Shown piece after piece: positions 1,048 to 40,163 of a stretch of 64,000 bases of DNA (positions are counted from its first letter, which is position 1; the number at the start of each line of letters is the position of its first letter). The stretch spans positions 1,426,001 through 1,490,000 of the forward strand of contig JAKCFJ010000001.1 of assembly GCA_025041175.1 (NCBI GenBank). Reading direction: 5' to 3'. Under the pieces are notes generated by a model. It searched no databases. It was not told the DNA's origin and was given only the letters and a program-made list of their open reading frames with translations. Position numbers and translations under genes: made by a program. This DNA is from Halobacteriales archaeon YIM A00010 (GTDB lineage: Archaea; Halobacteriota; Halobacteria; Halobacteriales; Haloarculaceae).

Positions 1048-1424
1048 TCGGAATCATGGCCCAGCAGGCCTCTATCCCCAGCAACGGACCCTGCAGACTA
1101 AAGAGTTTACCATGTGTTAGCACGCATCGATTATGATGAATAAGGTTCTATCATGAACATAAGGAATACGCAGTAATTATAATGAATGCTGATCGATCAT
1201 GTTCGTTTCGGATCGTGATCGAAATCCTATCATTGAAATTAACCATTTCGCGTGGCGCATCGAATCGGGCATGTACGCCGAATTTGGAGGTCTCGGCGCT
1301 TGAATCCCGGATCGATGCGTCGGCTCGCGACACGGCTCCGAGAAATCACAGATTTCTCGTGACGTGACCGTGGGCACAGCTCACGGTTTTTGGGCGTCCG
1401 ATCCGTAGCTCGAACCCGGATCGG
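1048..1424. other. Intergenic region upstream of korA with AT-rich patch and two hairpins
   Basis: No convincing gene is seen in these 377 bases. Positions about 1100-1200 are AT-rich, unlike the surroundings, with short repeats of atcatgaacata type, and probably hold the korA promoter region. Positions 1339-1391 hold two adjacent three-base-loop hairpins, listed separately. Short open frames here lack codon bias and recognisable protein features. Confidence 0.5.
1339..1391. repeat. Pair of three-base-loop hairpins (REP-like), second followed by T5
   Basis: First hairpin: arms cgagaaatc (1339-1347) and gatttctcg (1351-1359), loop aca. Second: arms ccgtgggc (1368-1375) and gctcacgg (1379-1386), loop aca, one G-T pair, followed by ttttt at 1387-1391. 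The arms resemble two hairpins of the array at 8102-8273 and differ from them by paired changes. Read on the minus strand, the order and the spacer containing gtca match the array. The T-run may also make the second hairpin a terminator for plus-strand transcription, although no plus-strand gene ends nearby. Confidence 0.7.
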
Positions 1425-7365: not shown

Positions 7366-7989
7366 TTACTCGTCGGGCAACTCTTCTAGCGGATCGCTGT
7401 CCTCATCCGCAAAGTCGTCCGGCGTATACGTCGTCGGGCTGGAATCGTCGTCACCGAGATTATGGATCTCGTACAGTGCTTCGACAATATCGTATGCTGT
7501 CCCGGACGACAGTCCGGTAAGGCTAGCGATTTGTCGGATGGTGAGGTCTCCCTCCCTGTGTCCCTTAACGAGGTCGTGTACGAGCGCGAAGGTCACGAGA
7601 CCGTGTTCTTCAAGCACGCGGTTGATGATTGGAAACTCATCTTCGTGCGCGACCACTTCGACGAGTTCGGGCGTGATCGTCACCTCTACGTCACGTATCG
7701 TGAGTGTCATCTCGAAGTCCTCCGCCTCGTACACACTGGCTCCAGCTTCTTCGCCGGTTTCGGTGATGAGTCCTGCCTGTTCTAACTTGCGGAGGTACTC
7801 GTACACTGTCTTTTTTGATACATTCGTACTCTTCTTGAGTTCGGGACCGGTTGCGGTTGACGAGTGGCGAATAGACGTGTAGAGTGAAGCGAGGGCGGTG
7901 TTGGCGAGCAACTCCGTGAACGTGGGGATACCGATGATCGTCCCCGGATTGTCACCCGCATTCCGCACGTGTTTCGTCCCGTAGCTCAT
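7366..7989 (-). CDS. Winged-HTH transcription regulator, haloarchaeal family
   Basis: 207 residues. A TrmB/MarR-like winged helix lies at about 25-85 (ALASLYTSIRHSS, TNVSKKTVYEYLRKLEQAGLI) and a second helical DNA-binding-like part at about 135-175 (LTIRQIASLTGLSSGTAYDI). The C-terminus is very acidic (DDFADEDSDPLEELPDE). A perfect 7-bp inverted repeat lies between its TATA box and the ATG, so it probably represses itself. Such regulators in haloarchaea often sit in accessory islands, sometimes with a partner gene, but no partner is evident here. The regulated target is unknown. Confidence 0.8.
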   Translation of the reverse strand: MSYGTKHVRNAGDNPGTIIGIPTFTELLANTALASLYTSIRHSSTATGPELKKSTNVSKKTVYEYLRKLEQAGLITETGEEAGASVYEAEDFEMTLTIRDVEVTITPELVEVVAHEDEFPIINRVLEEHGLVTFALVHDLVKGHREGDLTIRQIASLTGLSSGTAYDIVEALYEIHNLGDDDSSPTTYTPDDFADEDSDPLEELPDE

Positions 7990-8013: not shown

Positions 8014-8101
8014 CACCATAAGAGTTTGCAAGCGACGACCTGTCCTCGCGGGGCGAAACCATCCTTACTTCAATCGAACAGGCGGACTGCTGACTGTGTC
8101 T

Positions 8102-8273
8102 CCAGAACTCTCCATTTTCTGGTTGGCTAACAAGGGCGCAGCTCTTGTCAATGTCACCAGAAATCGGTGATTTCTGGTTGCTAACCGAAACTCTTCGAGT
8201 TCCGGTGATGTCGTCGGGCTACGCCCGACTGCTTGAGGGATTTCGTCCCTCTCTGTCGCCGGCCTGCGGCCGG
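8102..8273. repeat. Array of seven short hairpins, six with exactly three-base loops
   Basis: Tandem hairpins (stem span, loop): 8102-8122 (ccagaa/ttctgg, 9-base loop, degenerate); 8130-8148 (acaagggc/gctcttgt, gca); 8156-8178 (accagaaatc/gatttctggt, ggt); 8184-8206 (accg-aactc/gagtt-cggt, one mismatch, ttc); 8213-8229 (gtcgggc/gcccgac, tac); 8235-8251 (gagggat/gtccctc, ttc); 8259-8273 (ccggcc/ggccgg, tgc). Linkers repeat the words ttgctaac (8178, 8274; variant ttggctaac at 8123) and tgtc. The stems differ in sequence but share geometry. Related hairpins occur at 1339-1386 and 39650-39698. It is not CRISPR, because the units are palindromes without a constant repeat. Confidence 0.85.
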
Positions 8274-8567
8274 TTGCTAACCAGCCGTTATCACTATCCA
8301 GTCGGGCAGCAATGGTATACCATCGTTTTCGGCATACGACGATGGGCGAAAACGAGCACGGTACAGGCACGGAAACGATTCTACAGGCACGACGAACAGC
8401 GAAGTGACGAGCAACGACGCCGATGACGATGAGACGAAAGATCCCGACGGCGCATCGCTCTGAATCGATCCGTAAGAGTCAAACTCGGTACAACGACTGC
8501 ATTTCTGGCACAGATAGTAAAAAATCGCGTGTTCGAACTGACTGCGGTTAGGCTACCGTGGGGACGC
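8274..8567. other. Intergenic stretch with further palindromes and an acidic ORF tail
   Basis: atggtataccat at about 8312-8323 is a perfect 12-base palindrome. cgttttcg and cgaaaacg (about 8324-8354) can pair around a 15-base loop. The plus-strand frame ending at the tga at 8460-8462 has a halophile-like acidic tail (SNDADDDETKDPDGASL) without a credible start, perhaps the relic of a gene. Otherwise nothing is recognised before the thermosome stop codon. Confidence 0.4.
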
Positions 8568-10259
<1,692 letters not shown>

Positions 10260-10284
10260 AATCGATCGATGATTGAATGTGCTT

Positions 10285-10296
10285 CTACATAAAAGC
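10285..10296 (-). promoter_or_regulatory. Thermosome promoter TATA box
   Basis: On the minus strand gcttttatgtag is centred about 30 bases before the ATG at 10259. This is a good haloarchaeal TATA element for a short-leader or leaderless transcript, and such promoters are known to respond to heat. Confidence 0.6.
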
Positions 10297-10388
10297 ACTG
10301 GATTGAATCACGGCGAACACGTCACGCAACCGTCCCGAGGTGGGTGCTAATAGTTGACGACGTGTATTTTATATGCTGATTTTCGGTG

Positions 10389-39474: not shown

Positions 39475-40163
39475 GTGTATCTCACGGAGCTGGCGGCGGA
39501 ACTGAACGAAACGACGGCTAGCAACGCGATCGCCGTTCCGACCGATATCACCGACCGGACACAGGTTACGGAGGGGTTCGATCGGGTGCACAGAGAGTTC
39601 GGTCCCGTCGATCTGCTGGTGAACAACGCCTACCCCACTGGCGACATTACCAGAAATCTCCGATTCTGGTTAGCAGCCAGATTCCGATGGAATCTGGCGA
39701 CACCGAAAGCGGACTGGCCGACTCCGGTGACGGACCCCTCGGGGACGATCACTCGTCGTTCGAACGGTCGTTGCGCGTGTGGGCCGACGGTGCGTTCCTC
39801 TGCTCGGAACAGGCTGCGGCGGACATGCTCGCGGGTGACGGCGGTGCTATCCTGTTCACTAGTTCCTCTGCCGCCGTCCGCAGCGACGGAGTTGCCCACA
39901 GCAGTGCCGGGTTCGGGGCGCGCGGACTCGCCCGTTCGCTCGCTCGCCAGCTCTGGCCCGAGGGCATCTACGTTGCAACCGTGCTCGTCAACGGCAGCGT
40001 TGGCAGACCGGACCAGCGAGAGTGGGCGGACCACCCCGATGGGGAGTGGATTCATCCGGATCGCGTTGCAGAGACGTACTGGCACGTGGCGAACCAACAC
40101 CCGAGCGCGTGGACGCTCGAACTCGACATCAGGGTGCACGCGGCCGACATCAACTTCAGCTAA
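39475..40163 (+). pseudogene. SDR dehydrogenase, 5'-truncated and frameshifted by a hairpin repeat
   Basis: The first frame (39475-39646) encodes LTELAAELNETTASNAIAVP and PVDLLVNNAYPTGD, the middle of a short-chain dehydrogenase. From 39703 the continuation (ESGLADSGDGPLGDDHSSFE to the end at 40163) is in another frame. The N-terminal nucleotide-binding strand and glycine motif are missing, since elp3 ends only 36 bases upstream. Deleting bases 39647-39702 (56 bp) joins TGD to TES in one frame, so an inserted repeat caused the shift. The catalytic YxxxK is also not seen (AHSSAGFGARGL). Not functional. Confidence 0.85.
39647..39702. repeat. 56-bp inserted hairpin repeat inside the SDR pseudogene
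   Basis: Two hairpins: ccagaaatc-tcc-gattctgg (39650-39669, one unpaired A) and ccagattcc-gat-ggaatctgg (39677-39697, perfect 9 bp, extendable by one pair), separated by ttagcag. Read on the minus strand the linker is tgctaac, as in the array at 8102-8273. The direct repeat ctggcgaca occurs at 39638-39646 and 39694-39702, at the two edges, like a target duplication. Confidence 0.8.

Follow-up and report, generated by a model that had tools for sequence, protein, structure and literature searches.

Bacterial RPE (Rickettsia palindromic elements) and CGTC REPs are short palindromes with no known dedicated transposase that lie in frame within unrelated genes and add a short peptide to the product (PMC3733652, PMC10969869). 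Each CGTC REP is a single palindrome that has a stem of 8-9 bp, a loop of 4-5 nt, a CGTC tag and a 3-nt tail (PMC3733652, PMC10969869). GTAG REPs and REPINs, which occur with RAYT, consist of a hairpin flanked by a tetranucleotide, are dispersed and clustered, and are assumed to move as single strands (PMC3733652, PMC3116915). For the archaeon Haloquadratum walsbyi, the sections of the source considered here describe PATEs as non-coding elements with near-terminal palindromes, a short oligonucleotide target and no target duplication; their ends resemble those of IS605-type transposons, most are longer than the repeat described below, and 52-bp terminal-only forms are reported (PMC3119063). The same sections present the Haloquadratum repeats SMR-A and SMR-B as sequences of ~80-110 bp with terminal inverted repeats, no target duplication and no known mobiliser, which insert into the palindromes of other elements (PMC3119063). 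Here we describe a twin-hairpin repeat that behaves like the bacterial REP/RPE palindromes and the Haloquadratum PATE and SMR repeats, and that is probably a non-autonomous mobile DNA element of Halobacteria.

The window, i.e., the whole stretch of 64,000 nucleotides that was analysed, contains an intergenic array of such hairpins between the genes for an HTH regulator (7366-7989, minus strand) and a thermosome (8568-10298, minus strand), both named by direct reading of their translations. The array and its parts are as follows:

8097..8279, plus strand: whole array, three complete two-hairpin units and a truncated fourth (direct reading, covariance-model matches)
8097..8151, plus strand: unit 1, 55 nt, degraded; TGTC, hairpin A, linker, hairpin B (direct reading)
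8101-8123, plus strand: hairpin A of unit 1, several mismatches
8130-8148, plus strand: hairpin B of unit 1, loop gca
8152..8208, plus strand: unit 2, 57 nt (covariance-model match G000:C1:1434152-1434212, 48.7 bits)
8152-8155, 8156-8178 and 8179-8183: TGTC, hairpin A (10 bp, loop ggt) and TGCTA of unit 2
8184-8206: hairpin B of unit 2 (loop ttc), followed by the GA tail
8209..8253, plus strand: unit 3, 45 nt (covariance-model match 8209-8257, 67.7 bits, E=2.2e-19)
8209-8212, 8213-8229 and 8230-8234: TGTC, hairpin A (7 bp, loop tac) and TGCTT of unit 3
8235-8251: hairpin B of unit 3 (7 bp, loop ttc), followed by the TC tail
8254..8279, plus strand: unit 4, truncated; TGTC, hairpin A at 8258-8274 (loop tgc) and TGCTA, hairpin B absent (31.2 bits, direct reading)

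The initial annotation had reported seven tandem hairpins, six of them with three-base loops (gca, ggt, ttc, tac, ttc, tgc), and recurring linker words. The six are present one after another at 8130-8274, preceded by the degraded hairpin at 8101-8123, and TGCTA(AC) or TGCTT alternates with TGTC along the array. The limits it gave, 8102-8273, are slightly too narrow, the true extent being ~8097-8279. The hairpin family itself held up, and to it we add the two-hairpin unit, the multiple-of-three length, the in-frame gene insertion and the YR^YY target, none of which the annotation contained. Perfect hairpins (stem of at least 6 bp, loop of 3 nt) number three within a 190-nt span covering the array; when the entire 64 kb was shuffled 20 times with dinucleotides preserved, the maximum per 190 nt was three in one shuffle and one or two in the others. 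Over the window, 3-nt-loop hairpins with stems of at least 7 bp number 18 vs 8.2 in shuffles. Hairpin enrichment inside the window is by itself modest evidence.

It is not these window statistics that establish the family as real but the copies elsewhere in the same genome, where 52 places are matched by BLASTN and at least 138 matches to a covariance model lie on five of the seven contigs, most at E<=0.01. The model was built from 37 units and its E-values are rough; since 150 of 3488 candidates were scored, 138 is a lower bound. A structured repeat family had been proposed together with a covariance-model search as its check, and the 138 matches refute the outcome of no copies above background. 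The 83 arrays of this genome fall into 68 flank clusters and thus occupy mostly independent sites. Five loci (L020 1491, L023 261, L029 2012, L090 2071 and L091 2027) are paralogous, all bearing a 51-nt unit at an equivalent point in homologous flanks, and here the unit was copied along with larger sequence.

The family extends through about four fifths of the sampled Halobacteria, with matches at E<=1e-6 in 231 of 292 genomes and 64 of 77 genera of the class sample; of the genomes sampled across the phylum, matches occur in 15 of the 19 from the same order and in 0 of the 101 from outside the class. A pattern search of genome contigs returned six named contigs (Halohasta, Haloarcula, Halorientalis and Halobacteriales MAGs), and further named carriers are Natrinema, Halomarina, Salinigranum, Halolamina and Halocatena plasmids; the pattern search of viral contigs gave no exact match. 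Many units in three genomes of one abundant genus (L213-L229; G006, G011, G038) lie within larger composite intergenic repeats of ~200-300 bp that hold many further hairpins.

Each unit reads TC, hairpin A, TGCTW, hairpin B, then GA, TC or GC, and TG, and is usually 45, 51 or 57 nt long, with stems of 7-10 bp and 3-nt loops (199 of 259 loops). Parsed by structure at 40 loci, the units run head to tail as TGTC, hairpin A, TGCTA, hairpin B, GA, or as TGTC, hairpin A, TGCTT or TGCC, hairpin B, TC or GC. The parse yielded 61 units, 27 of them 45 nt, 6 of them 51 nt and 8 of them 57 nt long. A length divisible by three is found in 46 of the 61 structure-parsed units and 55 of 62 single units, and some units depart from it; lengths taken from covariance-model matches are biased by the model, and the structure parse was built independently of it. 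Most stems have 7 or 10 bp, and where an 8-bp stem occurs, linker and tail are shorter and the total is still 45 nt. Hairpins A and B are mutually unrelated, and no inverted repeats span the unit.

That the geometry is conserved while the stem sequences vary, as the initial annotation had noticed, is confirmed by covariation: 95.8% of stem cells are paired vs 70.4% in shuffles, compensatory double-change cells number 150 vs 49.8, and stem covariation reaches 0.745 vs 0.284, with every slid structure scoring below the true one. Strong covariation would also be expected of a structured RNA or regulatory element (a terminator, mRNA stabiliser or processing site) that selection maintains for its RNA fold, and many arrays are indeed intergenic, the window array lying on the downstream side of the thermosome gene. 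We nevertheless regard this explanation as very improbable, as sites are polymorphic among congeners, copies within genes are mostly antisense (15 REV vs 2 FWD), unit number and order vary freely, and the units have no fixed gene partner and no Rfam match (an Rfam search of the window returned 0 matches).

The presence of units at a given site is polymorphic between species. The flanks of arrays were joined end to end with the array left out, searched against 16 genomes (own plus relatives) and then aligned, and most inserts tested have an uninterrupted site in the congeners G292 and G294, comparisons that are between species at 77-89% DNA identity. Such empty sites correspond to the inserts of ppsA, an MR/MLE enolase, an AMP-ligase, PEPC, a Cu-ATPase, carB (G292) and cofC (G294); for the carB insert, G294 has a decayed copy, and at the cofC site G292 has a differently composed array and G294 none. 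At any one site the relative could have lost the insert by deletion, but this is not credible for all of them. From these empty sites the units appear to be mobile, or to have been so recently, in agreement with the mobility first suggested for the hairpin repeats.

The boundaries of insertion are precise. Among 65 arrays with distinct flanks, the left boundary reads Y in 62, R in 64, T in 63 and C in 60, and the right boundary T in 62, G in 61, Y in 59 and Y in 61. Since YR then precedes TC on the left and YY follows TG on the right, the element is TC...TG inserted at YR^YY. The preferred target is TG^TC (left tetramers TGTC in 55 and CGTC in 12 of 83), and abutting units again have TG^TC at their junction. 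A 4-bp target-site duplication was considered and rejected, left and right tetramers differing at many sites (CGTC..TGTC, CATC..TGTC). Two loci, L105 and L107, have TATC on both sides, L107 having gained 51 nt; the simple boundary model does not explain them. The unit thus goes in whole and exactly, with the R of YR^YY (preferably TG^TC) on one side and the Y on the other, and without apparent target duplication. We propose that it is moved in trans by an enzyme that recognises folded single-stranded hairpins. Because the unit junction is itself the commonest target, arrays could grow by repeated insertion, new units entering beside old ones at the recreated TG^TC.

Two other routes to such arrays bear on this proposal. 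Replication slippage, template switching or recombination at palindromes, with no dedicated enzyme, might account for the different composition of the cofC arrays in the two species (L039 vs L166) and for gains and losses of single hairpins within arrays. Slippage cannot, however, place an exact unit with fixed ends at dozens of unrelated sites that share a YR^YY target, and as the sole source of the arrays we judge it improbable. Insertion of a hairpin as a single strand without duplication is reminiscent of attC, the integron-like cassette sites that undergo recombination in a folded single-stranded form, and GCTAAC beside hairpin B resembles the attC core. That word is, however, missing from many unit types, e.g., TGCTTGAGG and TGCCCGAG; gene cassettes are absent, and two separate short hairpins are unlike the one long imperfect attC, making this origin extremely unlikely.

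Reading frames were assigned to the flanks by a codon model for which 69 acidic ORFs were the training set, so that genic status here means codon score, not annotation. In 22 cases the two flanks code on the same strand, and in 18 of these the frame runs uninterrupted across the array (p=4e-6 vs one third). With a stricter threshold, 15 of 17 in-frame cases read the reverse strand of the array (15 REV, 2 FWD), mostly in the frame where the junction is GAC (Asp), and insertions fall mostly at GAY Asp codons, as read on the opposite strand. In this Asp frame (-2), stops occur in 0 of 16 genic single units vs 8 of the 39 remaining ones; the adjacent ACA frame (-0) is open in 54 of 55 units, with ~13 stops expected in shuffles. 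Restriction of the multiple-of-three length to genic copies was also considered and rejected (19 of 22 genic vs 47 of 61 others, p=0.54); multiples of three being equally common outside genes, the length characterises the family as a whole and not just the copies that survived.

The interrupted proteins keep Pfam domains on both sides of the insert, as in a GH3 glucosidase, AMP-ligases, PEPC, CofC, an MR/MLE enolase, CarB, a heavy-metal ATPase, V-ATPase subunit I and PpsA. Two of these genes, carB and that for PEP carboxylase (PEPC), are single-copy in the genome and both carry an in-frame insert, which, with no second copy, must be tolerated if the genes are needed. The encoded inserts are short and polar (PpsA, SEEQRSSDNRTQSGD; CarB, SEAQSAPGSRIQSGD), and a PDB search with the encoded peptide, a weak query at 22 residues, gave no match. 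Genes annotated as merA, P-type ATPase, hemolysin-family, histidine kinase, phosphatase and ArsR carry the unit in frame in other, named haloarchaea, e.g., MerA VDSEGRGPSGNRTQSGDDA. Given a total length divisible by three and a largely stop-free reverse strand, insertion into a gene would add a short polar peptide in frame rather than kill the gene, and genes may thus serve as safe landing sites.

As to the mover, the initial annotation had named REP/RAYT or IS200/IS605-type single-strand transposition as a possible mechanism. The single-strand transposases of IS200/IS605 (IS608/ISDra2) act on hairpin-bearing ends and insert at a short fixed target without duplication. The units could accordingly be IS200/IS605-derived mini-elements (PATE) or REPs moved by a Y1 (HUH) TnpA/RAYT that binds single-strand hairpins, a reading that fits hairpins beside a short target, the lack of target duplication and the tandem arrays. 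The suggested genome search for a TnpA/RAYT gene was carried out and did find four PF01797 (Y1 transposase) genes. Within the genus, the three most unit-rich genomes all carry TnpA (own 4, G292 3, G294 7), and G183, G277 and G295, with 6-10 units, have none; G277 and G295 share identical contig coordinates for the matches listed and are therefore not independent genomes, G295 having 9% contamination. On a plasmid of Halorientalis sp. IM1011 (L240 ~1500-1605), a unit sits in a terminal palindrome of IS605-type appearance just downstream of tnpB.

Across the class, with genome labels matched by hand between the unit and PF01797 listings, no association with units is seen: 162 genomes have both, 69 units only, 40 TnpA only and 21 neither (Fisher p=0.53). 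Thirteen genomes with at least 10 units have no PF01797, including G006 (38 units) and G011 (44 units). We found no TnpA gene bounded by hairpins A and B; at the TnpA loci L050-L052 these hairpins were not seen as element ends, nor was an IS605-type element with such ends found in the genome of the window. The unit junction, TGTC, also differs from the GTAG of REPs. The named mover is thus not supported, and it is the lack of class-wide association, together with unit-rich genomes devoid of TnpA, that leaves us doubtful of TnpA as the mover while we consider a mobile element probable. With similar reserve, we suggest that a recombinase other than a Y1 transposase might move the element and that its units might have been kept to whole codons in length because it finds refuge chiefly in genes. 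If so, the element would act as a movable in-frame peptide by which essential enzymes of haloarchaea have been reshaped. At one TnpA locus (L051 1486-1902, G000:C1), a lower-GC 45-nt two-hairpin unit lies in frame within the Y1 transposase gene, near the N-terminus of the product (HFVWC-RKSKIYCSQISDLRC-PKYR).

Each of the described systems, RPE, CGTC REP, PATE, SMR and GTAG REP, has at least one defining feature that the twin-hairpin unit lacks or is not shown to have. The nearest functional analogues are RPE and CGTC REPs, which share short palindromic repeats and in-frame gene insertion (18 of 22 here; annotated genes in other genera). The present element differs in being archaeal and in its two-hairpin unit, 3-nt loops, TGTC-type junction and head-to-tail arrays; a CGTC tag with 4-5 nt loops is not its rule (CGTC in 12 and TGTC in 55 of 83 left tetramers; 3 nt in 199 of 259 loops). 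PATEs and SMRs are the nearest archaeal categories. Like PATEs, the units are haloarchaeal and non-coding, with near-terminal palindromes, a short oligonucleotide target and no target duplication, but at the TnpA loci examined we found no IS605-type parent, and in-frame insertion and tandem arrays are not described for PATEs in the sections of the source considered (PMC3119063). With SMRs, as those sections present them, the units share a haloarchaeal host, short length and lack of target duplication, but they measure 45-57 bp, their two hairpins are unrelated, and inverted repeats spanning the unit are absent. Insertion into palindromes has one likely case at L240, as for SMR-A, and one hairpin-nested case at L032, where a 45-nt unit lies in the hairpin loop of another unit; most sites are not palindromes. 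GTAG REPs and REPINs are alike in the hairpin flanked by a tetranucleotide and in being dispersed and clustered, but differ in tag and dimer orientation and in their RAYT, none being linked here; the hairpin foot reads YRTC on the left and TGYY on the right in consensus, not GTAG.

In the open-licence papers searched, we found no description of such elements, or of in-frame palindromic elements, in archaea. As far as the literature found goes, the twin-hairpin mobile repeat was previously unnoticed, and it would be the first archaeal counterpart found of palindromic elements that, like the Rickettsia RPE, lie in frame within genes. The repeat shows how selfish DNA can directly add peptide segments to central enzymes (carB, PEPC), and may explain odd polar inserts that annotators and structural biologists meet in haloarchaeal proteins. 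The defined 45-nt unit and its YR^YY target provide a handle for finding the mobiliser.

Two further sites in the window had been noted as similar units, at 39650-39698 and 1339-1386:

39643..39702, minus strand: single unit in a short-chain dehydrogenase-like (SDR-like) gene (40.3 bits, E=3.7e-10)
1339..1386, plus strand: two adjacent hairpins of similar geometry with different linkers, no covariance-model match

The model match thus upholds the first and not the second. The unit at 39643-39702 is 56 nt long, one A short in hairpin B, so that the flanking frames mismatch; the frame break marks either a recent pseudogene or a sequencing error. The pair at 1339-1386 is either a different sub-type or a coincidence. 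A second hairpin-array type, with linkers AACGTC and TGCC and loops catg, occurs at L038, L030 2374-2600, L034, L043, L045 and L052, partly near TnpA genes, and the pair at 1339-1386 may belong to it.
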